From a virus: a DNA stretch of 35,066 nt. The DNA lies in the IMG/VR virus record IMGVR_UViG_3300025617_000906, positions 1-35,066 of that record; one strand, written 5' to 3'. Both the position numbers and the translations under genes were made by a program. Position 1 is the stretch's first letter. Every line of letters begins with the position of its first letter. A model generated the notes under the pieces. It was not told where the DNA came from. It worked only from the letters and a program-made list of their open reading frames with translations, and ran no database searches. Below are positions 1 through 18,093 of the stretch, in pieces.

Positions 1-131
1 CAGCAATAAGAGCAGTTATAATTACAAAATCTAGCCAGGATCCACGAAACCGTGAAAAGATGGCTCTTTAGGAGGGTTTTCTGGCCAAACTCAGTAATAT
101 TATCCCAGGGTATGTTTTGAAAATTGTTCAT
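1..131 (-). CDS. Radical SAM protein, N-terminal fragment (runs off left edge)
   Basis: The minus strand from the ATG at 131-129 is open for 43 complete codons to the window edge. The last of these spell a radical SAM signature, FCNYNCSYC, with C36, C40 and C43 in the CxxxCxxC spacing that binds the 4Fe-4S cluster and S-adenosylmethionine. The lead-in (K..L..HLFTVSWILAR) has the beta-strand character expected before this loop. The start overlaps the 3' end of the preceding glycosyltransferase-like gene by 32 nt in another frame. There is no clear Shine-Dalgarno sequence, so translation would depend on coupling. No other Met, GTG or TTG start lies between 131 and the motif. The rest of the protein, including any SPASM or twitch domain, is outside the window. 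The motif makes a chance ORF unlikely; the substrate is unknown. Confidence 0.85.
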   Translation of the reverse strand, partial: MNNFQNIPWDNITEFGQKTLLKSHLFTVSWILARFCNYNCSYC

Positions 132-774
132 ATAACCAATCGAAGTCGTTAATTAATTGAAGATTATCGCTGTTAGAAATGCCAAACTCCATACCAGCAT
201 TAGCACCTCGTATCGCATCTCTACCAAAGTCTCCATTGCCGACAGTAGTCCAGATTTTAAGTCTTTCATTTGTTTCATCCTCATTTTGTCTATCAATAGT
301 TTTACTTGCTAATTTAGCACATTCTCTAAATGCACTTTTCCATGTTTCAAATTCACTTGTATTAAATGCAGTAACATTTGCAATTTTGTCTACTGCACAA
401 AACTTATCTGATATACTTGTAGTCATATCAGGTTTATTTGTGTCCATATTAATTGTAAGTTTACGGGGAAGAAGTTTTACGCCTCCATAACCATATTTTA
501 AACCATTAACTGGATTAATACTACGCCAAACATGTACAGTTTCTAAGTTATAACTGTCAACTTCATAATCAAAGTTAAAATCATCAACTAACTGTGCATC
601 TGCATCTACAACCCAAAACATTTTAGTAAAGCATTTCTTTGCCGCTTTAATATGTGCTTGATGAATTCCTTTTACATTAGCTACACGCTTTGCTGTAGGG
701 TATCTGTTTTTTAGTAAGTTCCAGTTATCTTCGGCATATTTTTCGCCATAACTGATAAAGACAATATCATACAT
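100..774 (-). CDS. DAD-motif glycosyltransferase-like phage protein
   Basis: A 224-residue protein starting YDIVFISYGE with a D57-A-D59 motif after a hydrophobic strand (FWVVDAD). This is the arrangement of the nucleotide-sugar/metal site in GT-A glycosyltransferases. It is a clear paralog of the 297-residue protein at 10529-11422: both share the N-terminal D-I-V-F-(I/L)-S-Y strand, AKRV, the G..AH segment, VDAD, the VNGL.YG.GG(V/L)K segment and a C-terminal DFDWL/DFEWL. I know this family from marine phage genomes as an uncharacterised or putative glycosyltransferase protein. It starts with ATG, 24 nt after the upstream radical SAM gene, the largest gap inside the operon, with only a weak purine stretch upstream. 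Its end overlaps the next radical SAM start. Transfer activity is inferred from the fold-like motif only. Confidence 0.8.
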   Translation of the reverse strand: MYDIVFISYGEKYAEDNWNLLKNRYPTAKRVANVKGIHQAHIKAAKKCFTKMFWVVDADAQLVDDFNFDYEVDSYNLETVHVWRSINPVNGLKYGYGGVKLLPRKLTINMDTNKPDMTTSISDKFCAVDKIANVTAFNTSEFETWKSAFRECAKLASKTIDRQNEDETNERLKIWTTVGNGDFGRDAIRGANAGMEFGISNSDNLQLINDFDWLYEQFSKHTLG

Positions 775-798
775 TTTAATACTATAACACCTTATATC

Positions 799-1773
799 CT
801 ATTTGTCAACCATATAATCTTTTAAACTAAAATTAGTGCCTAGCATATGATCCGGTGTAGCTGTTTTGTCATTAGACCACACTAATACTTCGGGATCCTC
901 GTATAAAAAATCACAATCCTTGCAATAATCTATACTATCAAAATCTCCTAGCTCGTGTGCCTTGCGAAGTTTGTTATACTCGTCTCCGTACCAAATATCT
1001 TCTACGGTTTGATTTTGTATATGTCCTAACACACTTTTGCTTTCATTCGGAGGACCCATTGTTTGACAACACGGAGTTACAGCACCTTTTAATCCTGCAA
1101 TGCCGCCTGAGCGTATTGTAATTTCTGGAGCAAAAGGACGTCCACATGTTCTACGCTTACTAGGATCACGTACATATAACGGTTGGTAGTTGCCGCTCCA
1201 ATTATGCATTTTCCATATGTAACCAATAGTTCCGGTAGGACCTATGAAATTGTTTCTATATTGATCTACTTCGTACTCAACTTGATTATTATCAAGTATT
1301 AAATGATAACTGCTAATTATACACTTGCTGTTTGTTTCTTTAATATACTCTTTTGATTTGATAATATTTGTCTTTAATAATTCAAAATTATCTACTGCCA
1401 TCCATTCTTTGTACTTGTCTTTGTTATAACCAATACAGCTAAATCTTGCAAAGCTAAGTCCTGCATCAATACAGTCCTGCATAAAGTGTCCGCTAAAGAA
1501 ACTTCCGTTGCTGTACATAAAACTAGGCAAGCCACGCTTAGTACATGCTTCAATGTAACGTGGCAAGTCCTTTGCCATAGTAGGCTCACCCGAACCTTCT
1601 AAGTTAATTACAGGGTTACCTGGTAATTGATCTAAAATGTTTTCAAACATTTCAAATGGCATCTTGCGAGTCCACTCTTTACCTCTTCCGGTAGTCTGTG
1701 GACACATTTGACATTTGTAATTACAGCCGCCGAATACTTCGACTACTGCACGTTCTAAATCAGGTACACTCAA
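799..1773 (-). CDS. Radical SAM/SPASM-domain protein (TTG start)
   Basis: A 324-residue radical SAM enzyme with C17, C21 and C24 in CNYKCQMC, and a GSGEP motif near residue 60 that contacts SAM. The C-terminal third has a SPASM-like set of cysteines: TCGRPF near residue 210, a VTPCCQ pair near 235, and a YCKDC pair near 285. SPASM domains carry auxiliary Fe-S clusters and are typical of enzymes acting on peptides or proteins. The start codon is TTG; an in-frame stop lies just upstream and the first internal Met sits inside the cluster motif, so the protein must start near here. A GGAG sequence 6 nt before the TTG supports it. The gene overlaps the previous one by 14 nt. It is the only one of the five radical SAM proteins seen with the usual core-then-SPASM order. 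Substrate unknown. Confidence 0.9.
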   Translation of the reverse strand: MSVPDLERAVVEVFGGCNYKCQMCPQTTGRGKEWTRKMPFEMFENILDQLPGNPVINLEGSGEPTMAKDLPRYIEACTKRGLPSFMYSNGSFFSGHFMQDCIDAGLSFARFSCIGYNKDKYKEWMAVDNFELLKTNIIKSKEYIKETNSKCIISSYHLILDNNQVEYEVDQYRNNFIGPTGTIGYIWKMHNWSGNYQPLYVRDPSKRRTCGRPFAPEITIRSGGIAGLKGAVTPCCQTMGPPNESKSVLGHIQNQTVEDIWYGDEYNKLRKAHELGDFDSIDYCKDCDFLYEDPEVLVWSNDKTATPDHMLGTNFSLKDYMVDK

Positions 1774-2494
1774 TTTTTACTCCATAATTTTCAAAATTTT
1801 TGTAAAGAGGCATGAGTAAAAATGCTTTATCTATAGATTCTTTACTTTCGACACTAACTTTTATGGATGATTTAGGATGAGTAACTTTAAAATTATATCC
1901 ATATTCCTTCATATCAAAATTCGCATCTATATGTGTTTCTTTAAAAAATTTTTCAATTTGTAATTTCATTTCAACTACTTTAGGTTCTACTAAATTACTA
2001 TCAATATGAACATGAGGTACTTCAGTATTGCCTACTTGATTATTAATTTCTATACGTATATTACTTTTATTAAAATAGTTATCTATATCATTTGCATTTT
2101 TAAAAATTTTATTAAACTTTACTTTTCGACAATCAGCATTATAAACTAATGCAGGAATTATATCTTCTCCAAAATGATACAAAATTATCGAACGTCCTAA
2201 CCCTGGATGAACTTGCCATAGCAATTCGTTCGGTACTGAAAACAATCCTATAGGATTATCAAACGACTGTTTTTTTAAATAATCATTTGTTAGCCAAACA
2301 CATTTACAATAGTTCCTTACACTATTTTCCCAATAACCGTTATTAAAAAAATCTTTTATCCAATTTTTTAAATCGTTAACTCTATGAAAATTAATTTCAC
2401 TCTTTTGAATATTAGCTAAACCTAAATTTATATTATTAGATTTTTTACTCCATATTCTATTTCTGGAGTCAATTCTAAATCTTTTATCCCTCAC
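1760..2494 (-). CDS. Unrecognised HPG-motif protein, copy 2 (GTG start)
   Basis: A 244-residue protein of a family I do not recognise, rich in Asn, Lys and Ile. It is a tandem paralog of the upstream gene (2484-3332). Shared blocks are VW(I/L)TND.L, a central (I/V)HPG..R motif (here QVHPGLGR), RK(I/V)K(Y/F).K(I/V)F, a (V/I)P.VH or VPHVH segment, and a C-terminal L.P...NF(D/E)NYG(I/V)KI block. No transmembrane segment or signal peptide is evident. The GTG start lies inside the upstream gene, giving an 11 nt overlap; its own 3' end overlaps the TTG-start radical SAM gene by 14 nt. The conserved His, Arg and Asn-Asp residues could form an active site, but that is inference; no function is assigned. 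Confidence 0.8.
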   Translation of the reverse strand: MRDKRFRIDSRNRIWSKKSNNINLGLANIQKSEINFHRVNDLKNWIKDFFNNGYWENSVRNYCKCVWLTNDYLKKQSFDNPIGLFSVPNELLWQVHPGLGRSIILYHFGEDIIPALVYNADCRKVKFNKIFKNANDIDNYFNKSNIRIEINNQVGNTEVPHVHIDSNLVEPKVVEMKLQIEKFFKETHIDANFDMKEYGYNFKVTHPKSSIKVSVESKESIDKAFLLMPLYKNFENYGVKIECT

Positions 2495-3332
2495 TTATTT
2501 TTATCCCGTAATTATCAAAATTTCTTTGTGTAGGTAGCAACATCCAAACTCTTAAAACAGTTTGTAAATCTTCTGTTTCTACTTCTACATTTATTTTACG
2601 CTTTTTATTAGTTAACAAACTAGGAGAATATCCTAAAGATGTTATATCAAAGTTTCCGGTTATTTCAGTAGTTGAATAAAATTCTTTTACTAACTTATGC
2701 CAGTCATTAATAGTTGTCTTAAGAACATTTTGGTTAAAATGAACATTAGGAATATAAAGGTTTTTTAATTGTGTTATATCAAGATTTATATTTTTATGAC
2801 CAAAATACTTATACATGTCTTCCATAGAATTAAAAACTTTTTTATATTTTATTTTTCTACCAGAATTAAATGTTACACATGTTATTTTATCTTTACAAAA
2901 CAAATAAGCAATAACTTGTCTGATACCGCCAGGGTGTATTCTCCATCTTTCATTGAAAGGATTCCAATAAGCACCCATTGGACTTTGAAAATCTCCTTCT
3001 TCGAGAAGGTCATTAGTTATCCAAACTGTTTTAATATATGATTCAACCGAACTTCTCCAACTTTCATACGTTGGATCAATATACAAAGTGTCCATAAAGT
3101 TATCTGTGTTCATGTGAATTCCGTGTTCGAAGAAATTTTTTGTATACAATACTTGATTTCTTAGAAAATACCTATCAACAAATAATTCATCTTTAGAGAT
3201 TTCTGCAATACCTAGTTTATCTCTTTTTCCGATATACTTCCAAAACATGTTGTTAGCAACAGCCCATGACTCTGTCTTAGAGTTATACCGTTGTTTGAAG
3301 AGGCGTTTTAATCTTGCCTTTTCGTTAGCCAC
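2484..3332 (-). CDS. Unrecognised HPG-motif protein, copy 1 (GTG start)
   Basis: A 282-residue protein, the longer member of the tandem pair with 1760-2494. It carries VWITNDLL, RIHPGGIR, RKIKYKKVF, IPNVHF and a C-terminal NFDNYGIKI block, all matched in its neighbour. The first ~50 residues are basic (KARLKRLFKQRY) and differ from the paralog. The start codon is GTG, overlapping the stop of the preceding gene by 8 nt (the sequence AGTGGCTAA serves both), so re-initiation is the likely mode of translation. The HPG..R signature flanked by a Trp is the best-conserved patch and the obvious candidate for a functional site. I cannot name a known domain; position in a radical SAM and glycosyltransferase operon suggests a part in the same pathway. 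Confidence 0.8.
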   Translation of the reverse strand: MANEKARLKRLFKQRYNSKTESWAVANNMFWKYIGKRDKLGIAEISKDELFVDRYFLRNQVLYTKNFFEHGIHMNTDNFMDTLYIDPTYESWRSSVESYIKTVWITNDLLEEGDFQSPMGAYWNPFNERWRIHPGGIRQVIAYLFCKDKITCVTFNSGRKIKYKKVFNSMEDMYKYFGHKNINLDITQLKNLYIPNVHFNQNVLKTTINDWHKLVKEFYSTTEITGNFDITSLGYSPSLLTNKKRKINVEVETEDLQTVLRVWMLLPTQRNFDNYGIKISEG

Positions 3333-4290
3333 TCCACTTACTCCACATATTCTCTAATAAAGTTAAATATTCAGCGTCATTATGCTTATAGGTATATTTA
3401 ATAGCATTATCTTTATATTCTATACTATAAAAATCAGTATATTCTTTAAAAAAATCTTGAGCTTCTGTACCTGTCATATTAATTATTTTTCCAACAGGTG
3501 CAAATCCTAGTGCTAACTGCTCGTCTTTAGGATCTACTCCTCTAGCTTCTAACCAAGCAGTAAACTTGTCATCCATTGGTAATTCAAAACCATTACCAAA
3601 GTAGCAATTAAACTCTCCTGTAATAACCCTATGTTCTGATATACCTGCATCTTCAACTATATCATCACCATCTAGATATGCTTCGTACCAAGTCTTACCT
3701 GTTTGTGCATAATGCAAGTATACCATACCATCTGTCATAGTGCGAGTAAAATTTGCTTTTTCTTCTAAGGGTATTTCTACTCTATCAGTTACTCCTAATA
3801 GATTATAGTAGAAGTAACCGTTGGTCCAGTTGTGTTTTTTATTTTCTTCAGTATCATACCATGCTTCTAATTCATGACAACAATGATTAAGAAAACAAAT
3901 GGCATTTCTAACTTCTCCAGACGAATTTGCTAATACAGATCCAGGAGACCAAAGTTGTCCTTGTGTTGTTTCAAAATGATGATGTAATACATTTAATAAT
4001 TCTTGATTGTACATTGTTCTAAGAGAAGTAAAATCTTCAGATATATTATAAGCACCCGAATCATTTATTTTTTGTACACTTCGATCTAAGTCGTTGCATA
4101 TATGTTCTACTGTTCTGTTAGAATTATGAAATCCTAGCAAACTAAAGTTTTTCTGAAAGATTTTTGGTCCGTGGGTAGATAACAACTTGTCTAGTTGCTT
4201 TAACCAAATGGTTGCTATGTTAGTATTGTCCGGCTCTATAGTAATATATCTTATATCACCATTTAACTTTCGAAACCCAAGATTTATCAT
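3325..4290 (-). CDS. Unknown protein with His-rich motifs
   Basis: A 321-residue protein not assignable to a known family by eye. Two His-containing helical-looking motifs stand out: LLNVLHHHFE (residues 98-107) and FLNHCCHELE (133-142). Both fit L(L/N)...H..(F/L)E, as if repeated, and could bind a metal or act as a catalytic pair. The middle is acidic and aromatic (YLHYAQTGKTWYEAYL), and the C-terminal half contains a soluble alpha/beta-like region. The ATG start is preceded by GAGGA and lies 35 nt inside the upstream SGNH hydrolase gene, the longest overlap between full-length genes in the operon. No signal peptide or membrane helix is seen. Function unknown. Confidence 0.75.
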   Translation of the reverse strand: MINLGFRKLNGDIRYITIEPDNTNIATIWLKQLDKLLSTHGPKIFQKNFSLLGFHNSNRTVEHICNDLDRSVQKINDSGAYNISEDFTSLRTMYNQELLNVLHHHFETTQGQLWSPGSVLANSSGEVRNAICFLNHCCHELEAWYDTEENKKHNWTNGYFYYNLLGVTDRVEIPLEEKANFTRTMTDGMVYLHYAQTGKTWYEAYLDGDDIVEDAGISEHRVITGEFNCYFGNGFELPMDDKFTAWLEARGVDPKDEQLALGFAPVGKIINMTGTEAQDFFKEYTDFYSIEYKDNAIKYTYKHNDAEYLTLLENMWSKWSG

Positions 4291-5134
4291 TAAACATCCT
4301 CGTTATTTGTCTTGCATGTGCTGCTTGTGATTTAGTACCCGGATGCATTCCATCTCTAGCACATTTATCGTCTATATTTGGAAATGGGTCTATAGTTATG
4401 TCAGGATACATTTTCTTTAATACACCTGTTAAGGGATAATCCCACGAACTTAATATTATTTTTATATTATGTAACTTAGCAACACTTACTATCCATTCAA
4501 CTGTTGATATTGACGACGTAACATAAAATTCGTCGTCTAGCTCAGTCAATTGCTTACTAATCTTTTTATAATTTTCATGAGGCCATTGAGGAATTAAATT
4601 AATTATTTGTCCGTGTTCGTTAATATGCATCCTGCGTCTCCATGCAGGTAAAGTAAAAATTGCATATTCTAAATCTAATACATTTGCTGCGGCGGCAAAT
4701 GTCCTAGCAACTCTATCTAGTGATGAACCGCCAATTCCAAAATTTAATCCGTTTAATCCACACTTGTAAGATACTATATCAGCAAACGTTTCTTCTTCTG
4801 CAATGCCTTCACCAAATGTAAAACTACATCCAAAAAATCCAGCCATAGGTTTTTTGCTGTTTAAGTTCCATTTTCCTCTAAAATTATACTTGTTAATATA
4901 GTATTTCCAATCATCTTCGCCTACTACCTTTTCCTCTACTTGATTAGTAGACGAAATTAAAATATGATCTTTGCCTTCTGCATGTTCGTCCCATGTATCT
5001 TTATAATATTTTCCATACGGAAACAAATCATTTACTGTTTTTGCACTAACAGGAGCCGTTAACATATATGTATTAAGTTCTTCGTCTGTTAATTGTATGT
5101 TGTCGTTCCGCATTTTTTTATTTTTAAAGTACAT
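4256..5134 (-). CDS. SGNH/GDSL-type hydrolase
   Basis: A 292-residue protein with the blocks of the SGNH hydrolase superfamily. Block I is FFGCSFTFGEG, with S104 as the likely nucleophile. A block II-like NFGIGGSS (131-138) supplies the oxyanion glycine. DGMHPG near the C-terminus gives the D261-x-x-H264 pair. Family members de-acetylate or esterify glycans or hydrolyse esters; in a glycosyltransferase-rich operon the natural guess is O-acyl removal or transfer on a sugar. There is no signal peptide, so it would act in the cytoplasm of the infected cell. An alternative ATG at 5113 lacks a ribosome binding site; the ATG at 5134 has a weak GGA upstream. It overlaps the preceding gene by 11 nt. 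Confidence 0.85.
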   Translation of the reverse strand: MYFKNKKMRNDNIQLTDEELNTYMLTAPVSAKTVNDLFPYGKYYKDTWDEHAEGKDHILISSTNQVEEKVVGEDDWKYYINKYNFRGKWNLNSKKPMAGFFGCSFTFGEGIAEEETFADIVSYKCGLNGLNFGIGGSSLDRVARTFAAAANVLDLEYAIFTLPAWRRRMHINEHGQIINLIPQWPHENYKKISKQLTELDDEFYVTSSISTVEWIVSVAKLHNIKIILSSWDYPLTGVLKKMYPDITIDPFPNIDDKCARDGMHPGTKSQAAHARQITRMFNDKSWVSKVKW

Positions 5135-6386
5135 CTTTTAATTCCGGATTAAGTTCAAATACGTTTGTTCCTCTAATAGAATCTAATTGATTTGATTTTC
5201 TTTTAAAGTCTTCAAATAAATGACTAGTATCTTCTCTATACATAAACTCAATTATATTATGCCATCCCTGAAAAGGTATACCTGTGTCTTTTTCTAATTG
5301 TTTTCCGTATTTAAATATTTTTTCAGCTGCTCTTTCTTTTAGTGCAGGAGGCAAAGAAGTAATACAATAGTAGTCTGGAGTAAATAAAGGATTAATATGG
5401 AATCTGTCTACCCAATAATTATTTAAGTTAAATGCCCTATCTTTATGCACACGCTCCAAAGGCAGTAAATCTTCTTTGTGTAACAAGTTGTGCATTTCTG
5501 TTAATCTAAAAATATTAAGTATACTTACAGTAGGATGCATCCAGTAATCAACACCGCTATGCCTGATCTTTTTTAGATTTTCTAAAACTTCTTTCCATTT
5601 TCCTTTATAACGAATGTGTTCAAATGCATTTTCTACTCCGTCAATGCTTAAACTTAAATGAACATATTTAAATTTCTTCCAAATAGATAATATATCTTGG
5701 TTTTTATTTCCTAGTGTTGTTCCGTTAGTACTATATCTTAAATCAATATCGTGCATTTGTTTTTCATCAAGCATATTAAGAATACGCCAATGCTCGGGCA
5801 TAATTAATGGTTCGCCTCCAGCAAAGTGTATTTCTTTCATAGTACCAAGATTTTCTTCAATGTCTTCCCAGAACACATTTGCTTCTTTCAAATCTATTAG
5901 TGTAGTAGGATATTTGTCGTGACTAGGATATAATTTTTTATGATCCTTTGCCCATTGAGTACTAAAAAGAGGCGAACATGTAGTACACGCTAAATTACAA
6001 TAATTACTAAATCTAAAATCCCAGTACTTTAGTTCTACTGATGGTATGGTGCCGTCATCTTTTGTACTAGCAATTAAATCCTTTGTATCATCGTACCATT
6101 TGTTATTTAACCCAGTTCGCATAGTGTTTAAATTAGTATCTTCCTTAGCGACACAACGTTGACATGCGCTAGGTAGCGGTTTATTATCTAACATATCCTT
6201 ACGCATTTTCTTAGCAACGTCACTATTTACTACTTCGTTTAAGGTTTGTGTTTTAACATTTCCAAAGCTGTTTTCATCACGCAACGGTGTTTGACAGCAA
6301 GCAAATGAACGTCCGTCATTAATAACATGTAGATGCATCCAAGGCGCTACACAAAAATTAGGACTATGTTTTAAATCATTACTCAT
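5124..6386 (-). CDS. Radical SAM protein with N-terminal SPASM/twitch-like cysteine domain
   Basis: A 420-residue protein. The radical SAM motif CNLACTTC lies at C130/C134/C137, followed by a GGEP motif (HFAGGEP) about 60 residues later. In front of the core is a cysteine domain beginning FC.APW.H (C12), then ACC (C30, C31) and ACQRC (C75, C78). This resembles a SPASM or twitch auxiliary-cluster domain but sits N-terminally instead of C-terminally. I know this architecture from marine phage proteins annotated as twitch-domain radical SAM. The C-terminus ends in an EDFKRKSN..D..R segment resembling the ends of the two paralogs at 7718-10532. ATG start with a modest AGAGA upstream; 8 nt overlap with the previous gene. 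Substrate unknown. Confidence 0.9.
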   Translation of the reverse strand: MSNDLKHSPNFCVAPWMHLHVINDGRSFACCQTPLRDENSFGNVKTQTLNEVVNSDVAKKMRKDMLDNKPLPSACQRCVAKEDTNLNTMRTGLNNKWYDDTKDLIASTKDDGTIPSVELKYWDFRFSNYCNLACTTCSPLFSTQWAKDHKKLYPSHDKYPTTLIDLKEANVFWEDIEENLGTMKEIHFAGGEPLIMPEHWRILNMLDEKQMHDIDLRYSTNGTTLGNKNQDILSIWKKFKYVHLSLSIDGVENAFEHIRYKGKWKEVLENLKKIRHSGVDYWMHPTVSILNIFRLTEMHNLLHKEDLLPLERVHKDRAFNLNNYWVDRFHINPLFTPDYYCITSLPPALKERAAEKIFKYGKQLEKDTGIPFQGWHNIIEFMYREDTSHLFEDFKRKSNQLDSIRGTNVFELNPELKDVL

Positions 6387-7725
6387 ATTTCATCTCTTTA
6401 AACAAATTATAAAACTTACTACTATGTCTAGCCATATAAAATGTTCCTTTGTTATGTATTAAAAATGGTTTAACGTCTTCTATCTTGCCATTAATATTAT
6501 CTAATGATAAAGTTGATAACTTTCTAATGTTATCGCATATTAATTCAATCTTTCTATACAAAGTACTTACACGATCATACTTCTGATCGAACAAATCGTG
6601 ATATCCAAAATACCCTTGATTGTTTAAGTAATTCCACACACCCATACTACCAATAACCATAAAAGGATGCCCTATTGCGATCATTTTCCACACTGCTTCA
6701 GTTAAGTATAATGCAGTTGCTTCTTCGGGGTAATTAGATTGTGTTGACGAGCAAAACTTTTCACTTGTTACTGTAAACAATGTATTTTCAAAGATAGTTT
6801 TATCAAATCTTAAAGTATCTTTGCCAAACTTATTATAATCATAATCTATTACATTTTTACTTTCTATAACTTTATCAATTGCTTTATATTTTTTCTGCTT
6901 GTACTCTGGAGTCCAATACTTATAAATTAAGTTAATATTATTTTTATCAACTTGATAGTTTGTGCGTTCATTAAAAATATTATAGCTAACTAAACCGTAC
7001 TGGTCTAAATTGTTTGCTATTACATCACTTACAAATGCTATGTTATGTATATTTAAAAATCCGGTAAGGGAGTTAAACAATGCCGGCGGGCTATTCCAAG
7101 TGTGTACATTAAAATTTTCAGTTTCATGGTTAACTAATTTATTTTTACTGTGCATGTTCACCCAATAAAAATCTTCTCCATGATATCTACTTTTAGCTGT
7201 TAATTGATGAGAGATTTGCCACCAATCTATTCCAAATATTTTTATATCTCCAAAAAACTTTTTCCAGGCACCAGATAATTCACTTGTAATAACATATACA
7301 TTATGTTTAGGAATATTATAAGTTTTTAGCTCTTCTTCTAGTTTATTTTTGATACTTTCCATATAAACGTAATCAGGAGATAACTGCTGTATTAAAAACA
7401 ACATCTTCATTTTACCTTTTCGTATTCTAGCAATACTTTTTTCTGGAATATCTATTAGAATATTATGTTTTAAATTACCTGTAAATTCTATCGGATAAAA
7501 TAGATTAGGAACTTGGCGCTTTCCAGTATAAAGATTTATTTCAACCCCAACTGCTTTCATAGTATTAAAAAACTCAGTTGTTTTATTTAAAGCATAATTC
7601 CTATCTCTATCAGATACAAAAGCAACTTTAAGTTTTTTTTTAAAATTATAACTTAATGTACCATTTGGAACTGGTATACTTTTATCGATAAGTTTATCGT
7701 AGTAAAGATTAACAATATCAATCAT
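6379..7725 (-). CDS. GT-B/GT10-like glycosyltransferase-like protein
   Basis: A 448-residue, Asn/Lys/Tyr-rich protein. The C-terminal third holds a pattern typical of phage and viral GT-B proteins: FTVTSEKF (317-324), then LTEAVWKMIAIGHPFMVIGS (341-360), then G..GYHDLFDQKYD. The TE..(W/F)K.(I/L)..G.PF.(V/I).G core resembles the donor-binding region of GT10 (fucosyltransferase-like) enzymes and the many marine phage relatives with E.YD at the end. The N-terminal half is poorly conserved and may bind the acceptor. No membrane segment is evident. The gene sits between two radical SAM genes with 8 nt overlaps on both sides, and appears more AT-rich than they are. GT10 membership is a judgement from motif shape, not a search; donor sugar unknown. 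Confidence 0.7.
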   Translation of the reverse strand: MIDIVNLYYDKLIDKSIPVPNGTLSYNFKKKLKVAFVSDRDRNYALNKTTEFFNTMKAVGVEINLYTGKRQVPNLFYPIEFTGNLKHNILIDIPEKSIARIRKGKMKMLFLIQQLSPDYVYMESIKNKLEEELKTYNIPKHNVYVITSELSGAWKKFFGDIKIFGIDWWQISHQLTAKSRYHGEDFYWVNMHSKNKLVNHETENFNVHTWNSPPALFNSLTGFLNIHNIAFVSDVIANNLDQYGLVSYNIFNERTNYQVDKNNINLIYKYWTPEYKQKKYKAIDKVIESKNVIDYDYNKFGKDTLRFDKTIFENTLFTVTSEKFCSSTQSNYPEEATALYLTEAVWKMIAIGHPFMVIGSMGVWNYLNNQGYFGYHDLFDQKYDRVSTLYRKIELICDNIRKLSTLSLDNINGKIEDVKPFLIHNKGTFYMARHSSKFYNLFKEMKYE

Positions 7726-9166
7726 AAGTTGCTAGTGGTTCATCTATATTTTTATTGTCAGGTTTTAAAATCCAACCTTCTTTTTCAGCAAGTTCCATAA
7801 TGCTTGCATCTGTATCAGGAATACTGTCTACCCAATCTGTAAGTATTTTTGGAAAAACATAGATACTTTTGTTTCTACGAACATCATACTGTGCATAAAA
7901 AGTTTTAAAATCACGCCATAGCGTAGTAGGATTGCTTGTACGTCTATGCGGAGCATCTACAGTTACTAAGTAATCTATTAACCGTTCGATACTTGCCTTT
8001 TCAAATTCGTGCCAGCCTATATCGCCTTTGTGTTCTTCCCACCAAGTACTTAATTTTTCATGACAATAATCCTTAATATGATTAGGCAATGCTAATGGAC
8101 TTTGGAAACTAGGAAAACGTAATAGGTTTAAACTTACTGTAGGTGTTCTACTTTGTGTAAGTTCTTTTAGTTTATAAACTTCGTCTAAGAAATCTGTAAT
8201 ACTAAACAAGCACAAACTATTAATAGTCATCATAATATTAATATTATTACAATTACCTTCTGTTAACATACGTTTAATATTAGTAAGCCATTGTTCGTAA
8301 TCTAGTCCGTCTCGAATGTACTCTGCTTGTGCGCCGGTTGCTTCGCAACTAGTATACAAATCAAAGTGTTTCATGCCTTGAGTTTTAGCAATCAGTTTGT
8401 CAATAATATCATCTTTAGCAATTAAATTACTATTGATAGCAAATCGCATATTTGTTTCCTGTGCGTTAAACCAGTCAAACAATTTCCAAGTATTTCCGCT
8501 CATAAGGGGTTCGCCGCCAGTAACACGCAATTCTTCTAAACTATCTGCAAGCCCATTATCCCACCATTTCCAAAATGCTTGAATATAGGGATTATTCTCA
8601 TCATCTTTATATGGTTGAGTCCACGATCCATCTTGTCTAAACGCACCTGCACCATCGCTTACAAGATTAGTATATTCACCGTTCTTTTTAATGTCTTTAG
8701 CCCAAGTAGTTGAGAAAGAAGCATTACAATACGAACATGCAAGATTACAAGTTCTATCAAATGCAATTTCAAATGTTTTTAGATTGACACTTTCATTATG
8801 ATCCATTTCGTATGCACGTTGTAATTCTTCATCTGAGTAAATAATGCTTTTAAAAGTTCTGTCACTTACAGCATCTTTCTTCATGTCTTCCATTTTCCAA
8901 CAGTATTCACACTCGGCTGGACGCTCGCCTGTTTGCATCATACGGCGCATTTCTTTTTTGTGCTTAGTATTATGAATAGCAGTGTAGTCTTCTTCTACTT
9001 CAATTACTGGAATCTTATGTGCCGGTGGGTGATGGCAACTGGCCGTAGTGCCACTACCTAGCCAGGTAGTTGCATTGAACCACTTTGCTCCGCAAAAACT
9101 TTTACTTTTACTGTCTAGTACTCTATCTCTATACTGTTGTAGAGATTCATCTTTTTTCTTAGCCAT
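7718..9166 (-). CDS. Radical SAM protein with N-terminal CHHP cysteine domain, copy 2
   Basis: A 482-residue protein. The radical SAM motif CNLACSYC lies at C140/C144/C147 and VTGGEP follows. The N-terminal domain holds C25 (FC.AKW), C44-H45-H46-P47, H50, and C86/C89 (ECEYCW). These residues fall at exactly the same numbers in the paralog at 9159-10532, which suggests an auxiliary metal cluster in a fixed scaffold. The C-terminal end has a YDVRRNKS segment shared with the paralog; no extra C-terminal cysteine cluster is seen. Start ATG is supported by AGAGGA upstream, with an 8 nt overlap onto its paralog. Marine phage relatives are annotated as twitch-domain radical SAM proteins. Target unknown. 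Confidence 0.9.
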   Translation of the reverse strand: MAKKKDESLQQYRDRVLDSKSKSFCGAKWFNATTWLGSGTTASCHHPPAHKIPVIEVEEDYTAIHNTKHKKEMRRMMQTGERPAECEYCWKMEDMKKDAVSDRTFKSIIYSDEELQRAYEMDHNESVNLKTFEIAFDRTCNLACSYCNASFSTTWAKDIKKNGEYTNLVSDGAGAFRQDGSWTQPYKDDENNPYIQAFWKWWDNGLADSLEELRVTGGEPLMSGNTWKLFDWFNAQETNMRFAINSNLIAKDDIIDKLIAKTQGMKHFDLYTSCEATGAQAEYIRDGLDYEQWLTNIKRMLTEGNCNNINIMMTINSLCLFSITDFLDEVYKLKELTQSRTPTVSLNLLRFPSFQSPLALPNHIKDYCHEKLSTWWEEHKGDIGWHEFEKASIERLIDYLVTVDAPHRRTSNPTTLWRDFKTFYAQYDVRRNKSIYVFPKILTDWVDSIPDTDASIMELAEKEGWILKPDNKNIDEPLATYD

Positions 9167-10532
9167 TCCATTCCTCTAACAAATCTTTAAACCGTAAAAA
9201 AGTATCCGAAAAACTTTTATTTCTACGTTTATCATATGCTTGTATGTATCTTACAAAGTCCTGTCTATGCTCTACTGCTGGTTCTGTTGTACGTAGATAA
9301 TCACAAAAGCGTTGTATTTGATCAAATTCTTCTAAGTAAATTCTTGCATACTTTTCTTTAGTATAGTATTTTAACCAGGATTTACACAATTCTTCTATAG
9401 TATTAGCAAACTTTACTCGTTCGTCTTTATCTAATAATGTACACTGTAAATGCGGCGGCCAATGCATTGTGTTAACACTTAGCGGCACTCTGTTAACTTC
9501 AAAACTTTTATTGTATTCTGATCTTAAATCCATTACTTCCATAATGAAGTCTGTAAAGGAAGGTAAACTTAAAATATTAATTGTTGTCATAATTGCTACA
9601 TTAGACTCTGTCAAATCTAAAAATTTACGTACATTACTTTTCCAATTATTATAATTCAATCCGTCTCTTGCATATTCTGCCTGTTTGCCTGTACTCTCTA
9701 AACTTGAGTATATATCAACCTTTACTCCGACCGTTGCTAGTGCGTTGACTTTTTCAATAAGTTTATTAATTAACTTATCTTCAACACACGCATTGGTATT
9801 AATAGCAACATCCAATCCTTGTCGTGGATTTTCTATTAAGTAATCTAACAATTTCCAAGTATCTTTGGACATTGTGGGTTCGCCGCCGGTAATGCGCAAC
9901 ACTTTTAAATGTTTTAATGCATCAGGGAACCATTTCCAAAATGCTTCAACATAAGGATTATGCTCTCTTTGAGGTATAGGCATTTTGCCTGTTTTTTCTA
10001 GATAGTCTAAATGATGAGCGCCATGCTTAGTAGGATAAGGTCCGTTTTGTTTTACGTCTTCCATCCACTTTGAGCTAATCTCAGGAGAGCAGTATGCACA
10101 TGCAAAGTTACAAGCATTTGAAAAACTTACTTCTAAGTAACTAGGATAAACATTTTCACCCGGATCACTCATTGCAATTTCTTCAAATCTATCCCAGGCC
10201 CATGTATCACTAGTTTTGTAATGTCTATCACTAAAGTAGTCTTTACCTAGATCTTCAATCTTCCAACAATAGCTACATTCGCTAGGGCGTTCGCCCATAA
10301 TCATTTTAAGACGCTGTTCTTTTTTGTATTGACTGTTGTGTAATGCAGCAGGATCTGCTTCAATTTCTTTTAAAGGAATTTTATGAGGGGCGGGATGATG
10401 GCAACTATGATTATAACCATTCTGGAGCATAAGTGTAGTTTGTAGCCACTTGGCTGTACAAAAACTACAACTTACATTGTTAATTTTCTCACGCTTTTCT
10501 TCTAATACTTTTATACGTTGCTCGTTACTCAT
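9159..10532 (-). CDS. Radical SAM protein with N-terminal CHHP cysteine domain, copy 1
   Basis: A 457-residue tandem paralog of 7718-9166. The N-terminal domain has C25 (FCTAKW), C44-HHP, H50, and C86/C89 (ECSYCWK), plus an additional C22. The radical SAM core begins with CNFACAYC (C141/C145/C148) and carries RITGGEP. It shares the SDR segment after the cysteine domain and the YDKRRNKS segment near the C-terminus. ATG start with a 4 nt ATGA overlap to the upstream glycosyltransferase-like gene. Conservation of all cluster cysteines in both copies argues that both are active rather than one decaying. Two such enzymes side by side may act on different positions of one substrate or form a heterodimer; this is inference. 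Confidence 0.9.
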   Translation of the reverse strand: MSNEQRIKVLEEKREKINNVSCSFCTAKWLQTTLMLQNGYNHSCHHPAPHKIPLKEIEADPAALHNSQYKKEQRLKMIMGERPSECSYCWKIEDLGKDYFSDRHYKTSDTWAWDRFEEIAMSDPGENVYPSYLEVSFSNACNFACAYCSPEISSKWMEDVKQNGPYPTKHGAHHLDYLEKTGKMPIPQREHNPYVEAFWKWFPDALKHLKVLRITGGEPTMSKDTWKLLDYLIENPRQGLDVAINTNACVEDKLINKLIEKVNALATVGVKVDIYSSLESTGKQAEYARDGLNYNNWKSNVRKFLDLTESNVAIMTTINILSLPSFTDFIMEVMDLRSEYNKSFEVNRVPLSVNTMHWPPHLQCTLLDKDERVKFANTIEELCKSWLKYYTKEKYARIYLEEFDQIQRFCDYLRTTEPAVEHRQDFVRYIQAYDKRRNKSFSDTFLRFKDLLEEWNG

Positions 10533-11422
10533 TTAGCTCGCTTTATAATTCTCGGAGTATTTTGATATACTGTTTTAAAGAATTTACTTTGATCAGTATC
10601 TAACGGTTTTGTAGAAATATCAACTCCGGTGCCTTTAAGTATTTCAAACCCCAAACGTTCTGCTTCACTTTCTGGGTTTAAATCTTTTACATCACTTTCC
10701 CAAAAGTTGTTTAGCCATTCAAAGTCACGCACATTAGCGTAGTCCCAATCTGTACAATTAGTCATATAGCAACCTTGTCTAGCGCCTAGTATGCTCCACA
10801 TACCATTATCTACATCAGCACCCACTTGACTCCAAATAAGCAATCGTTGGTAGTTTTGCCACCATACTTTACGCAGATCATCTACTTTGGCTCCTTGATC
10901 CAAAGACATCTTGACACCTTCCCTAAAGCCAGCCCTCCAAGCCTGCCAAGGTGTCGCATTAGTATAAGATACGCTATAGTTCTCGTTAAACTGGTAATAC
11001 TTGTCGTCGAAACAGAATTCAACTTTGCCACGTTCGTCTCCTTCTTCTGAGTGTTCATGTGTTTTCATATTATGTACAAATTTACGTGTCCACATTTTAA
11101 GTCCGCCGTTGCCGTACATTAGTCCGTTAACATGTAATTTTCCACACCAGCTAAACACATGATCTGCTGTTAGCCCTAAACTTTCGTAGTCAACTTCGAC
11201 ATTAAGAAACGTAGGGTTGACAATATTGTCTGCATCTACTGTTACAAAATATTCTGTTTCTGAAATATCTGCACAAGCCTTGTGTGCAGCATCCGATCCT
11301 TCTACGCCATGTACACGTTTTGCCCATGGTACTTTCTGACACAAGTCTGCGTAATTCTTTTCTGCATTAGGTTCGTCATACGACAAAAACACAATGTCTT
11401 GTTCTGCAATTTTTATGTTCAT
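10529..11422 (-). CDS. DAD-motif glycosyltransferase-like phage protein (long paralog)
   Basis: A 297-residue protein with D63-A-D65 following the hydrophobic strand EYFVTVDAD, as in GT-A fold enzymes. It matches the shorter protein at 100-774 through most of its length and adds about 50 C-terminal residues (SEAERLGFEILKGTGVDI onward). Shared features are IVFLSY, AKRVHGVEG, AHKA, VNGLMYGNGGLK and AFREG/GFREG. Immediately downstream is the first CHHP radical SAM gene, joined by an ATGA overlap. The previous gene also ends in an ATGA overlap, so three genes are stop-start coupled. A catalytic sugar-transfer role is inferred from the DxD motif and neighbours only. Confidence 0.8.
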   Translation of the reverse strand: MNIKIAEQDIVFLSYDEPNAEKNYADLCQKVPWAKRVHGVEGSDAAHKACADISETEYFVTVDADNIVNPTFLNVEVDYESLGLTADHVFSWCGKLHVNGLMYGNGGLKMWTRKFVHNMKTHEHSEEGDERGKVEFCFDDKYYQFNENYSVSYTNATPWQAWRAGFREGVKMSLDQGAKVDDLRKVWWQNYQRLLIWSQVGADVDNGMWSILGARQGCYMTNCTDWDYANVRDFEWLNNFWESDVKDLNPESEAERLGFEILKGTGVDISTKPLDTDQSKFFKTVYQNTPRIIKRAK

Positions 11423-11997
11423 TTAGGCTCCACTATGTGAATATAGTTTTCAAATACTTTAGCACAGTATACACTAATATCACTTCTCTGAGCAACCTCT
11501 TTTTTATAATCTTCAACAACATATCTTTCACCGTACAATATTTTCCACATAGGAATTTCTAATGTATCTAATAAAATATTTGGATTATTTTCTTCAGTTA
11601 TATAAAATCGTATTACTTGCTCTTTATAATATGATGTTGACGATAATAATCGTTGCATACCTTCTGTTAAATATACTACCCAGTTATTATTATTTTGCAT
11701 TATTAATACTGCGTTATTATCATTATACTCAGCAACTTTTGCCAATCTATGAATACTATTGTCAACATCAAATGCAGAAAAGTCTTTATGTTTTGTTTTT
11801 ATTTCGTATTTTACATCATTTCCGTTAACTACAGGAACAACAGTATAATCCTTCATTTTTTTTGTTCCCGACGACCAGAGTTTGTATTCGTCTCCTTCGA
11901 TTTCTATACTAGGGGTAGAGTTATCAAACGAGTTAGTAACTTTCCAAATTTCTCCTGTATCTTCTTTAAAGTTTATATAAAAGTTCATTTCCCACAT
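11419..11997 (-). CDS. Small beta-rich phage protein of unknown function
   Basis: A 192-residue protein that I cannot assign. The N-terminus (YINFKEDTGEIWKV, then EGDEYKLWSSG, then DYTVV) looks beta-rich and recalls small marine phage proteins with a TG.I opening and a following (F/W).SG..... DY.V segment. No cysteine cluster, signal peptide or membrane helix is present. The ATG at 11997 is chosen because AAAGG lies 8 nt upstream; an ATG at 11988 would give a simple 4 nt ATGA overlap but its ribosome binding site spacing is worse. It sits between the tandem GT-A genes and the long DAD protein. It could be a partner or scaffold; no role is assigned. Confidence 0.7.
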   Translation of the reverse strand: MWEMNFYINFKEDTGEIWKVTNSFDNSTPSIEIEGDEYKLWSSGTKKMKDYTVVPVVNGNDVKYEIKTKHKDFSAFDVDNSIHRLAKVAEYNDNNAVLIMQNNNNWVVYLTEGMQRLLSSTSYYKEQVIRFYITEENNPNILLDTLEIPMWKILYGERYVVEDYKKEVAQRSDISVYCAKVFENYIHIVEPK

Positions 11998-12818
11998 AAT
12001 TCTAACCTTTTGATTAAATCGTCTGTTAAGAAGTTATCTTCTACATAATGTAACACACCTTTTTGCAAATAATTCCCTAACAATAATGTATCATCGTTTC
12101 GATAGTACTGTCCTATAACTTTTGTCCATTTTTCAGGAACCCTTGACCACTTTTGTGCTCGGGTTTTCATATGTGTAAATGTTATATAACTATTAGGATC
12201 AGTTATCTCTTTTTCGTTACCTAATATTTTACTAGTTAATGCACAAGAAACATCTATGCTACACCATTTTTGATACTCATGCGAAGCATACTTTCCATAG
12301 AATAGTTGCCAATTATTTACTACCATCTCAAGCAAGGTGTAGAACTCTTTTGCTTTGTCGCCCTTTTTAAAGTAGTGTAAAGCACTATACAAGTTTGGCA
12401 AATTATTTGCATCAAATGTTTTTCTATAAAATCTACTAGTTACCAATTCATCTCTATATGTTCTAACATTACTAACGAAAAATAATTCTCGTTTTTTTAA
12501 TTCTTCCCACCAGTGCGTAATATCACTTAAAACAAGCATGTCAGCTTCTAGAGCAATAGTTTCATTATAAGGACTTGCATGATATAGTTTCCATCTGTTG
12601 TTAATTTTCCAGGTGCTATCTTTTGCATCATCTGACCAAGGAATAGGAATAATTTGATCAAACACGCTTTGCCATTCTTTTGGGACTGTGTCGTTAGTAA
12701 TTAAACTAATTTTTTGATCTTTATTATACTTGTGCAGACTAAGTGCTAATGCATATGCTTGTCTAATATAATTAGTCTTATCATTATTCTGTGCTAATAA
12801 ACAAAATCCTTTACTCAT
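11985..12818 (-). CDS. GT-A (GT8-like) glycosyltransferase-like protein, ExD variant
   Basis: A 277-residue protein starting MSKGFCLLAQNN, matching MSKGVLLFAQNN of the upstream gene. The ATG at 12818 is preferred over an in-frame TTG at 12824 because AAGGA lies 8 nt before the ATG and the paralog begins at the same residue. The segment ASPYNETIALEADML places E91-A-D93 where the paralog has DTD. This is the metal/nucleotide-sugar motif position in GT-A enzymes such as GT8. The replacement of the first Asp by Glu may be tolerated or may mark a changed donor. Later segments (LYSALHYFKKGDKAKEF) also match the paralog. It overlaps the upstream gene by 8 nt. Confidence 0.8.
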   Translation of the reverse strand: MSKGFCLLAQNNDKTNYIRQAYALALSLHKYNKDQKISLITNDTVPKEWQSVFDQIIPIPWSDDAKDSTWKINNRWKLYHASPYNETIALEADMLVLSDITHWWEELKKRELFFVSNVRTYRDELVTSRFYRKTFDANNLPNLYSALHYFKKGDKAKEFYTLLEMVVNNWQLFYGKYASHEYQKWCSIDVSCALTSKILGNEKEITDPNSYITFTHMKTRAQKWSRVPEKWTKVIGQYYRNDDTLLLGNYLQKGVLHYVEDNFLTDDLIKRLELCGK

Positions 12819-13671
12819 TTTCAAAGTCCTTATCTATTGCTCTATTTAAACTAAATTTATTCATAATATGAACATTTACATCATTAACTTTTCCGACGTG
12901 ATATTGTCCTAACCATTCTTTTTTATCAAGTAAAAAAGTATAACTATCATCTTCTGTTTTTAATAATATATCTGAATCTGTTGTTAACCACATATTTCCA
13001 GGCATTGGTCTTGGCCAATTTGATCTCTGAAATCCGTTTAAAATGTGAATTGCTATACTAAATGCAAAATCATTTCTAAAATTTGCTCTAGGTATTTGAT
13101 ATATTAAACGATAAAAATTCCAATTTTCTCTAATGTGTTCAATTAAATCAAAAAACGATTTAGTATCTTTACTTTTCTTAAAATAAAATAAAGTAGCCCA
13201 ATACATATCGATAGATCTATCTGATATCTTATTAAATCTATGTTCGTCGGGCCTATCCATGTTAACATCAGTAACATTTCGGTGTATAAGAAAATTTTCA
13301 CTTGTGTTAAAACATTGTAATAATGTATCATTCCCAATGATAAAATCAGTATCCATAACTATAGTTTCGTTAAATGGTGATAGTTCGTAACAAGTTCCCC
13401 TATTATGATTTTTCCATTCTAGTTCCCTAGCAGACATAGTACCATCTTTAAAATTTCTACGCTGTTTTGTAGAATATGGTTTTGTTTCTATAACATGTTC
13501 TATATATTTTTTATAAAACGGGTATGTTTTTTCAAGATACGACTTATTGTCTGTAGCAAGAGCAACAGATAAATTTAGATGTTGTTTAATTTTTTTTGCA
13601 CAAAAAATTGCTTGTTTAATATAATCAATACTAGCATTGTTTTGTGCAAATAATAAAACACCTTTACTCAT
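12811..13671 (-). CDS. GT-A (GT8-like) glycosyltransferase-like protein, DxD
   Basis: A 286-residue protein with the sequence SPFNETIVMDTDF (D107-T-D109), the classic DxD of GT-A glycosyltransferases. It is followed by a region with a (Y/W)WATLFYFKKSKDTKSF segment that aligns with the downstream paralog. The N-terminus (GVLLFAQNN..IDYIKQA) resembles the first strand and helix of family 8-like sugar transferases seen in marine phages and bacteria. It starts with ATG in an ATGA overlap with the first gene of the operon. No membrane anchor, so a cytoplasmic enzyme. Donor and acceptor are unknown; virion or host-surface glycosylation are both possible. Confidence 0.8.
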   Translation of the reverse strand: MSKGVLLFAQNNASIDYIKQAIFCAKKIKQHLNLSVALATDNKSYLEKTYPFYKKYIEHVIETKPYSTKQRRNFKDGTMSARELEWKNHNRGTCYELSPFNETIVMDTDFIIGNDTLLQCFNTSENFLIHRNVTDVNMDRPDEHRFNKISDRSIDMYWATLFYFKKSKDTKSFFDLIEHIRENWNFYRLIYQIPRANFRNDFAFSIAIHILNGFQRSNWPRPMPGNMWLTTDSDILLKTEDDSYTFLLDKKEWLGQYHVGKVNDVNVHIMNKFSLNRAIDKDFENE

Positions 13672-14015
13672 AAATCAACTAATCCTTTGACAGTTCTATT
13701 TTTCTTTATTTCTGTATATTGATTTAAGTACTCGTTACTAGTTGTAAAATAAATGTCTAATAATTCAGTTAAAAAATCTTCTATATTATCAATTTTTACT
13801 GGCATATCATTGTCGTCAATTAAGACAGTATCTTCTTGTCCTGTTTGTACTAGCATGTGACAAAAATTAATTAATTCTCTAGTTACAGAAAATTTTCCGC
13901 CATTTAAATAGTGTACACAATTTTCTAAGAATTTTTCTTTAATAATTCTACGCTGATTATTAAGTGTAACCATATAGTTGGAAAATTCCAACGCTTTTTC
14001 TAATCGTTCGTCCAT
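13668..14015 (-). CDS. Small conserved phage protein, first gene of accessory operon
   Basis: A 115-residue, mostly helical-looking protein (MDERLEKALEFSNYMVTLNNQRRIIKEKF) with an NGG.F segment (residues 54-57) and an acidic VLIDDNDMPV stretch. It resembles small hypothetical proteins of T4-like marine phages that I cannot name. It directly follows the sigma-70-like promoter and has the strongest ribosome binding site of the region (AGGAGG, 5 nt before the ATG). Its end overlaps the first GT-A gene by 4 nt. Being promoter-proximal with a strong start it should be the most heavily translated gene of the operon. A structural or regulatory role are both possible; the linkage to the sugar genes may be only positional. 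Confidence 0.8.
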   Translation of the reverse strand: MDERLEKALEFSNYMVTLNNQRRIIKEKFLENCVHYLNGGKFSVTRELINFCHMLVQTGQEDTVLIDDNDMPVKIDNIEDFLTELLDIYFTTSNEYLNQYTEIKKNRTVKGLVDL

Positions 14016-14033: not shown

Positions 14034-14062
14034 ATTATATAACATAATGTAAGCAAAGTCAA
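14034..14062 (-). promoter_or_regulatory. Sigma-70-type promoter (TTGACT-N17-TATAAT)
   Basis: Minus-strand TTGACT at 14062-14057 and TATAAT at 14039-14034 are separated by exactly 17 bp. The -10 matches the bacterial consensus fully and the -35 at five of six positions. An AT-rich stretch (AATTCATTTAATAC) precedes the -35 like an UP element. It sits in the 59 nt gap between the last tail gene and the accessory operon. The expected start point is about 14026-14028, giving a leader of only about 10-13 nt that begins at the ribosome binding site. The form is that of an early, host-RNA-polymerase promoter, unlike the late-type elements further right. Confidence 0.85.
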
Positions 14063-14074
14063 GTATTAAATGAA

Positions 14075-15559
14075 TTAGGAGTTTAGAGGATCGTTCAAAT
14101 CTCGAGTAACTAATCCCTTAGGGCGTCTAGTATTATTATCAAAATCAATAGCAGATCCGTTAGGAACTTTTAAGTGAAGTCCGCAGAGCATACTGGCATT
14201 GCCCGTAAGTACTGGTTCGTCTATTGGATCGCCAGGGGGATCAACACCGTCATCGCCGTATTGTACGCCATATCCGTCGTTTTTATTTTGTCCTAGATCA
14301 TTAGGTCCTTCTGGATCTGCTCTAGAGCCATCAAAAAACTGAGCAAAAAAGTACACACGGGTGTATCCGTTAGCATCAGAATTTATTTTTTTAGCATACA
14401 CTCTTACTGTATTTTCGTAGTAGTCAGCATCTTCTTCGCCGCCTTCTCTTTGGTAAATGATTTGATAAGATGAATTTAATCCAAATGCTCCTAGTGCATT
14501 ATCAATGCCGCCGCCATCGTTAGGATCTACATCATTATTGCCATTTCTAGGTCTTCCACTAGCAGCAGTTGTAGATGTTCTAGTAAGGACAACATCTCCC
14601 ATATTCTGTAGCATTGTTCCCCAATCACTGTCTTTCAAACTGCCACCGGTTAAGTATGCACTAAATCTAATTTCGCCGCCAGCATTAAAATAGTGTCTAA
14701 AATGATCAAAGCCCGAAGCAGTAGTCGCGCCATTTACATCCGTAGTATCATATCCGCCATCAAATCTTGCATAACATTCAAAACTAATAGTTTGAATCTG
14801 TCCGGAGCCACCCCATTGTTGTGTTCTATTAACAGAAGAAAGTAGAGTCCTTTCGCCTTTTAGTTCAATATGATTACTGTGTACGCTATGTATATTGCTT
14901 TCAATACTGCCAATCGCAGTTTGCCAATCCTTAGCACCTAAATTGTTGTTTGGACTATCAATACTAAATGAATCAGTGCCGCTATTGTAGGTAACACTAG
15001 GTCCAGATGCGTCTGCACCAACTATATAATCAGCTGACTGGTTAAATGTATCAGGTAAAGCTGAGGTATTACTTTGATGCTGTGAACATCTATTAACGTC
15101 AGTTCTTAATGTATTCCAATTAAGATTATCAATAAGATTGCCAGTAACTTTTCTAAGGCGTTGAAACCCTGATCCTGTACTAGTTAAATCTACAATAGTT
15201 CCAGTTAAATTTGATGGTGCATTAGCAAGTTTTAACGATCCTGCACCAACTCTATAAACAAAGTAATGCTTTTGGTCTACTAAGCCTCCGATTACAGTTC
15301 CGCCATCTGCTTCATACTTTACTAAATCACCGTTTACTAAACCATGACCACTGATAGAAATTTCGTTACTATTTAAATCTAGAGAACTGCCAACAAACTG
15401 GACGTCTGCGTATGTAAAGGAATTAACAATTGAATTATAACTAGGAACTTCATATCCGTATCCAGTAGATCCAGATCCGTTACCCAGTACATCAACAACA
15501 TCTAGTATTAGACCGTTGAAGTCATTTGCAGCAACTAAACTTCCTTTAGATATTGTCAT
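14075..15559 (-). CDS. Virion tail-associated protein with inserted HGL-type module
   Basis: A 494-residue likely virion protein, paralogous to 15572-16477. Shared parts are an N-terminal (I/V)LG.G.G..GYG segment, a helical L(N/R).L(R/K).D(V/I)N....HQ segment, and a FNAGGEI..S....G......W..ML.NMG core followed by SYQ.IY.R.G and IFIYAK/VRVYAK strands. Between the first two parts it carries a ~70-residue module (15206-15412) with ISGHGLVNGDLVKY and GG..IGGLVDQKHYFVY, absent from the paralog. Modules of this kind recur in phage and bacterial surface proteins. ATG start with AGAGGA upstream, 12 nt after the paralog's stop. Exact place in the tail is unknown. Confidence 0.75.
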   Translation of the reverse strand: MTISKGSLVAANDFNGLILDVVDVLGNGSGSTGYGYEVPSYNSIVNSFTYADVQFVGSSLDLNSNEISISGHGLVNGDLVKYEADGGTVIGGLVDQKHYFVYRVGAGSLKLANAPSNLTGTIVDLTSTGSGFQRLRKVTGNLIDNLNWNTLRTDVNRCSQHQSNTSALPDTFNQSADYIVGADASGPSVTYNSGTDSFSIDSPNNNLGAKDWQTAIGSIESNIHSVHSNHIELKGERTLLSSVNRTQQWGGSGQIQTISFECYARFDGGYDTTDVNGATTASGFDHFRHYFNAGGEIRFSAYLTGGSLKDSDWGTMLQNMGDVVLTRTSTTAASGRPRNGNNDVDPNDGGGIDNALGAFGLNSSYQIIYQREGGEEDADYYENTVRVYAKKINSDANGYTRVYFFAQFFDGSRADPEGPNDLGQNKNDGYGVQYGDDGVDPPGDPIDEPVLTGNASMLCGLHLKVPNGSAIDFDNNTRRPKGLVTRDLNDPLNS

Positions 15560-15571
15560 ACTAGTCCTCTT

Positions 15572-16477: not shown

Positions 16478-16505
16478 TACTTACGTATATCCTATTATGT
16501 GCTAG

Positions 16506-18068: not shown

Positions 18069-18093
18069 TTATAAACCCCTAAGTGCGATATTG

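Follow-up and report, generated by a model that had tools for sequence, protein, structure and literature searches.

A radical SAM-rich operon beside the tail-fibre genes of an uncultured jumbo-type phage and its possible role in glycan modification

Radical S-adenosylmethionine (SAM) enzymes usually number one or two per pathway. Here we describe an operon dominated by genes for such enzymes in a linear viral contig, IMG/VR record IMGVR_UViG_3300025617_000906, which was analysed over its entire length of 35,066 nt (from here: the window). The operon combines radical SAM with glycosyltransferase genes, begins behind tail-fibre genes at a conserved sigma-70-type promoter of its own and continues beyond the end of the contig. 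In our tentative reading, an uncultured jumbo-type myovirus carries in its host-recognition region a large glycan-modification operon, of which the window contains the proximal part; the operon would be expressed in early or middle infection and would act on the host. That phages can carry many radical SAM genes is known from reports of 2017 and 2020, though it is unexplained; added here are the anatomy of the operon, its scale, the split in promoter types, the contrast in selection and the bacterial counterparts.

Results

Five open frames with the cysteine motif CxxxCxxC lie in the first 10.5 kb of the window, all on the minus strand:

1..134 (open from about 131), minus strand: fifth radical SAM gene, represented by its 5′ part, a motif-bearing open frame (CNYNCSYC) cut by the contig end
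799-1773, minus strand: rSAM/SPASM enzyme, CNYKCQMC and GSGEP; PF04055 (41.5 bits) and PF13186 (42.3 bits), both above cut-off
5124-6386, minus strand: NTwi1, N-terminal-twitch radical SAM enzyme, CNLACTTC and GGEP; NF033640, 377 bits
7718-9166, minus strand: NTwi2, N-terminal-twitch radical SAM enzyme, CNLACSYC and GGEP; NF033640, 298 bits
9159-10532, minus strand: NTwi3, N-terminal-twitch radical SAM enzyme, CNFACAYC and GGEP; NF033640, 323 bits, and PF04055 above cut-off

The original prediction, made from the letters of the window, of five radical SAM genes in about 10.5 kb was thus borne out as four complete genes plus the start of a fifth, with CxxxCxxC intact in all five and, as also predicted, a GEP motif in the four complete ones (GSGEP once, GGEP three times). 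PF04055 detected all four complete open reading frames (ORFs), NTwi2 falling under the Pfam cut-off. By score (NCBIfam cut-off for NF033640, twitch domain-containing radical SAM protein: 170 bits) and by cysteine pattern, NTwi1 to NTwi3 are members of NF033640: among 55 sequences including these three, the N-terminal cluster cysteines C12, C31, C75 and C78 and the CxxxCxxC cysteines C130, C134 and C137 are invariant. The protein encoded at 799-1773 is a radical SAM/SPASM enzyme by PF04055 and PF13186, and SAM cleavage is predicted for all four. The AlphaFold model of NTwi1 (pLDDT 93.4) has the radical SAM fold; in VIA-align its best score was to anSME (Z 13.0), followed by BlsE, CteB, SkfB and MoaA. 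No match was obtained for the NTwi1 sequence in the PDB or for NTwi3 in cultured phages by direct tblastn, and a search at the DNA level likewise gave none.

The count of five is too low because the contig ends within the operon. In a relative the fifth gene is complete, encoding 338 aa with the same motif behind the same glycosyltransferase-like gene. The map of relative G009 places 13 radical SAM genes within 19 kb behind the same glycosyltransferase genes, in the same position as the operon of the window. By PF04055, the related viral contigs hold 13 (G009), 12 (G010 and G011 each), 11 (G012 and G013 each), 16 (G001) and 25 (G014) such genes. On G014, a 77-kb phage contig (L107-L110), 25 ORFs with CxxxCxxC were mapped, and its island additionally encodes an NDP-sugar epimerase/dehydratase, a DegT sugar aminotransferase, GT10-like and QueC-like proteins. 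The cultured phages that were tested have much lower counts: HTVC008M, P-SSM2, PBECO4, SCTP-2, PA5oct and record C48C1 carry no or one radical SAM gene, and Agrobacterium phage Atu_ph07 and Sinorhizobium phage Phosso carry four apiece.

Transcription of the locus proceeds on the minus strand from the gene for a giant structural protein through unkK and five fibre/collar-type genes, followed by a gap of 59 nt and the operon, the 3′ part of which runs off the contig. The operon reads J, GT_I, GT_H, G, GT_F, NTwi3, NTwi2, E, NTwi1, SGNH-like, D, C, B, rSAM/SPASM, GT_A and the truncated fifth radical SAM gene. Genes overlap throughout 799-14015, and the sole gap downstream measures 24 nt (774-799). 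The features other than the radical SAM genes are:

100..774, minus strand: GT_A, GT-A-type glycosyltransferase-like protein of a paralog family of GT_F, alignable with GT_F; its homologs are about 32% identical to GT_F
1760..2494, minus strand: DuOB-like protein B; PF22557, E=2.1e-6, above cut-off
2484..3332, minus strand: DuOB-like protein C, adjoining B; in relatives the rSAM/SPASM gene often has a homolog of B or C immediately upstream
3325..4290, minus strand: protein D, 53-73% identity among close relatives
4256..5134, minus strand: SGNH-hydrolase-like protein, fast evolving; S104, N131, D261 and H264 invariant
6379..7725, minus strand: ORF for protein E, fast evolving
10529..11422, minus strand: GT_F, GT-A-fold glycosyltransferase-like protein by AlphaFold model and PDB fold match
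11419..11997, minus strand: protein G, syntenic in relatives
11985..12824, minus strand: GT_H, glycogenin/GT8-like glycosyltransferase; PDB profile search, glycogenin-1, E=1.2e-7
12811..13671, minus strand: GT_I, glycogenin/GT8-like glycosyltransferase, aligned with GT_H within the same profile
13668..14015, minus strand: protein J, first gene of the operon, conserved in relatives
14075..22110, minus strand: five tail-fibre/collar-type genes upstream of the operon, several with PHROG and Pfam tail matches
22750..35064, minus strand: giant virion structural protein (4104 aa up to the contig end, where the frame stays open), with tblastn matches to virion structural proteins of jumbo phages

The interleaved glycosyltransferases of the original prediction hold for GT_F, GT_H and GT_I by fold or profile and for GT_A by homology to GT_F. 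The GT_F model (pLDDT 92.5) resembles GT-A glycosyltransferases, a PBCV-1 enzyme ranking first at modest TM-scores. The predicted SGNH gene is backed by motif blocks and by a weak match in the PDB profile search (acetyl-xylan esterase, E=0.015). For protein D the PDB profile search gave no match and no convincing family was found, nor was there a convincing match for protein E in Pfam or the PDB.

DuOB-like genes are located directly 5′ of the rSAM/SPASM gene in many contigs. Because this adjacency persists even where most other genes of the window are missing (L051, L072, L091, L093, L100), the two may act as a pair.

Among the matches listed, unkK and the giant protein are closest to jumbo phages of the Atu_ph07, Phosso, 121Q and PA5oct type; the other border of the region lies beyond the contig.

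The operon and the genes upstream of it differ in promoter type, as seen from three elements of the window:

14034..14062, minus strand: sigma-70 promoter of the operon, TTGACT-N17-TATAAT, in the gap between fibre genes and operon
781..809, minus strand: sigma-70-type promoter, TTGACA-N17-TATAGT, directly before GT_A, also in several relatives
16506..16513, minus strand: T4-like late promoter box TATAAATA, upstream of the fibre gene at 15572-16477 (one of the five listed above), kept in 16/17 contigs

The pattern TTGAC[AT]-N17-TATA[ACG]T occurs at the operon start in 17 of 18 contigs, compared to 0.01 expected from shuffled sequence. A generic promoter scan was uninformative by itself, returning 96 sites against 91 expected, and conservation across relatives was required. 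T4-like late boxes precede fib2 in 16/17, fib3 in 4/5 and unkK in 2/2 contigs, whereas within the operon a single match was found, before GT_A. In relative G001, late boxes precede genes for the tail tube, baseplate wedge, hub and tail fibre, and also those for endonuclease V and DNA polymerase; sigma-70-type boxes precede the genes for a late sigma factor, GroEL, SbcD, an HNH endonuclease and GTP cyclohydrolase. Judged by motif, the radical SAM operon would therefore belong to the class read by the host polymerase, before or apart from the virion genes.

Two side observations concern these promoters. In the window and several other contigs the end of the -10 box lies just 6–7 nt from the GT_A start codon, which suggests a leaderless GT_A transcript. 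Furthermore, the GroEL preceded by a sigma-70-type box is encoded by the relative phage itself (L207:4159-5748, contig G001).

The order NTwi3-NTwi2-(E)-NTwi1-SGNH-D is kept in about 20 contigs; the rSAM/SPASM gene, GT_A and the fifth radical SAM gene usually come next. The motif CxxxCxxC is intact in 87/87 homologs of the four complete radical SAM genes (19/19 for rSAM/SPASM), which speaks against the degradation that the original prediction had named as counter-evidence; interrupted copies occur in G010 only and may be sequencing errors. The ratios of nonsynonymous to synonymous polymorphism (pN/pS) at moderate divergence were 0.084 for NTwi1, 0.112 for NTwi2, 0.197 for NTwi3 and 0.110 for rSAM/SPASM; the corresponding values were 0.19-0.35 in the glycosyltransferases, 0.42 in fib2, 0.53 in E and 0.58 in SGNH. 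Hence, strong purifying selection acts on the radical SAM genes, whereas SGNH, E and fibre genes evolve fast, a contrast which points to a constant radical chemistry coupled with fast-changing partners. Synteny, intact motifs and pN/pS values of 0.08-0.20 together uphold the proposal of a dedicated multi-gene radical pathway under strong selection. Independent scattering, the other counter-evidence that had been named, applies in part, and to one gene, rSAM/SPASM, which also moves alone: homologs of 89-90% identity occur without other window genes in the flanks searched (L042-L044, L047, L048, L050), from which it follows that single genes move horizontally.

N-terminal-twitch radical SAM relatives are present in many bacteria, the closest mainly in Bdellovibrionota. 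Several Bdellovibrionota genomes have three to six radical SAM genes around the match (nine at locus L152), and the same genomes hold homologs of GT_A or GT_F at roughly 30-50% identity. GT_A homologs adjoin radical SAM genes in bacterial genomes, and the Pfam domains around the wider set of matches are mostly radical SAM and glycosyltransferase family 2, some 2-oxoglutarate (2OG)-Fe(II) oxygenases occurring as well. Since some marine bacterial matches came from genomes holding T4-type capsid genes, the argument drawn from bacteria is limited to Bdellovibrionota genomes without such a gene. Six genomes were of this kind (G017-G021, G028), no T4-type capsid gene being found in them, and five of the six have GT_F homologs. 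The clusters resemble the window in having N-terminal-twitch radical SAM genes near GT_A or GT_F homologs and differ from it in gene order as well as in the absence of a T4-type capsid gene from the genome. The pathway therefore needs no virion. Separately, T4-type capsid genes and GT_F homologs share a contig in at least two bacterial genome records, L194 (G024:C57) and L147 (G022:C3), which seem to contain phage contigs binned as bacteria.

Discussion

The original prediction had offered a host surface glycan, a virion protein and a small peptide as possible substrates. The host glycan is favoured here because the operon has its own conserved sigma-70 promoter, while the fibre genes carry late boxes. 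Host RNA polymerase with sigma-70 would start the operon before the late sigma factor of the phage switches on the virion genes. Two GT8/glycogenin-like and two GT-A-like glycosyltransferases, the SGNH esterase/acyltransferase-like protein and the series of radical SAM enzymes could then jointly make or remodel a sugar structure on the infected cell, in the simplest case its lipopolysaccharide or capsule. The radical SAM enzymes might supply an unusual sugar chemistry or a linked amino-acid chemistry, by dehydrogenation, epimerisation, deoxygenation or bond formation. The phage would probably profit in that competing phages are kept from adsorbing and its progeny from sticking to debris. A sugar substrate is supported by the glycogenin matches of GT_H and GT_I, the GT-A fold of GT_F and the sugar genes of G014.

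Several points weigh against this reading. The fold of NTwi1 is about equally near to peptide-modifying (anSME, CteB) and to sugar- or nucleotide-modifying enzymes (BlsE, MoaA), and because both kinds score alike it gives no substrate name. The window lacks a gene for NDP-sugar biosynthesis, and neither a flippase nor a ligase was recognised in it. The early type of the promoter is read from a sequence motif and not from a measured transcript, and late read-through from the fibre genes is possible because no terminator is shown between them and the operon.

The main rival, which we regard as unlikely, is that the radical SAM enzymes and glycosyltransferases have as their targets the tail fibres or some other structural protein, modified while the virion is assembled. 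The operon follows immediately on the fibre genes and shares their strand, which would fit such a decoration of the virion, as would the best PDB fold match of GT_F, a glycosyltransferase linked to PBCV-1 capsid glycosylation. However, the operon has a sigma-70-type promoter instead of the late box of the fibre genes, and related clusters exist in bacterial genomes in which no T4-type capsid gene was found. Promoters and Bdellovibrionota clusters thus place a virion protein behind a host surface glycan as the substrate.

Modification of a peptide or host protein, in the manner of ribosomally synthesised and post-translationally modified peptides or of protein maturation, with sugars added later, appears more unlikely still. 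Peptides are the substrates of most characterised SPASM/twitch radical SAM enzymes, and NTwi1 is structurally near anSME, CteB and SuiB. Nevertheless, the window could not accommodate a precursor gene, intergenic space within 134-14015 being at most 24 nt, although a precursor encoded elsewhere is possible; nor did any NCBIfam peptide-maturase equivalog reach its cut-off for the radical SAM proteins of the window. The small peptide is accordingly disfavoured among the three substrates proposed.

That small molecules of the infected cell, such as nucleotides or cofactors, are altered as counter-defence or takeover is improbable: a weak similarity to the viperin family (NF038283, below cut-off) and the QueC-like genes in the islands of relatives stand against the steady linkage, in phages, to several glycosyltransferases and the SGNH-like protein and, in bacteria, to glycosyltransferases.

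Three phage systems invite comparison. Nishimura et al. (2017, PMC5332604) reported the environmental genome TARA_ERS488813_N000010, which, as a marine T4-like phage with 12 radical SAM genes, is alike in number. Compared by description only, it differs in that the passages of PMC5332604 dealing with it treat these genes under Fe-S metabolism, together with an A-type carrier, and give no operon, promoter or glycan context. A supply of Fe-S clusters finds little support as an explanation for the window: neither the A-type carrier nor the IscU family was found in close relatives, PF01521 (A-type carrier) occurring only in G006 and G015 and PF01592 (IscU) only in G006 among records most of which are fragments. 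The 126-kb contig G006 (L043), which lies outside the syntenic group, combines the A-type carrier and an IscU-like gene with an rSAM/SPASM gene about 90% identical to that of the window.

In the host-recognition cluster of pelagimyophages, which has VrlC and gp14 as its borders, radical SAM cassettes and GT8-type glycosyltransferases occupy a variable region by the tail fibres, which was ascribed to host-surface change and coinfection avoidance (PMC7029224, 2020). The window likewise has radical SAM and glycosyltransferase genes beside tail fibres. In contrast, among the cultured relatives listed those nearest to it are jumbo phages, and its operon is dominated by radical SAM genes, which in pelagimyophages are only occasional cassettes.

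Atu_ph07 and Phosso share with the window the succession of giant structural protein, unkK homolog, fibre and radical SAM cluster. They differ in having only four PF04055 matches each, and a blast comparison of their radical SAM genes with those of the window gave no match. As to the host, relative G004 encodes a permuted transfer-messenger RNA (tmRNA; L217:12108-12387; RF04321; ARAGORN tag ANDETFALAA) and 11 tRNAs elsewhere on the contig; the tRNAs and the permuted tmRNA hint at an alphaproteobacterial host for G004 only. No tRNA genes were found in the window or in relative G001.

Conclusions

A wider proposal, possible but rather doubtful, is that a many-step radical SAM pathway common to large uncultured phages and Bdellovibrionota-type bacteria makes a new class of surface glycan or glycoconjugate, which the phages would use early and vary by swapping radical SAM and glycosyltransferase cassettes. 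So many radical SAM genes maintained by purifying selection, 13 within 19 kb and as many as 25 on a single phage contig, suggest an extensive undescribed biochemistry. The promoter split makes the testable prediction that the operon would act on the host ahead of virion assembly. As Atu_ph07 and Phosso are cultured and carry, at this locus too, a radical SAM cluster of smaller size, the question is accessible to genetics.

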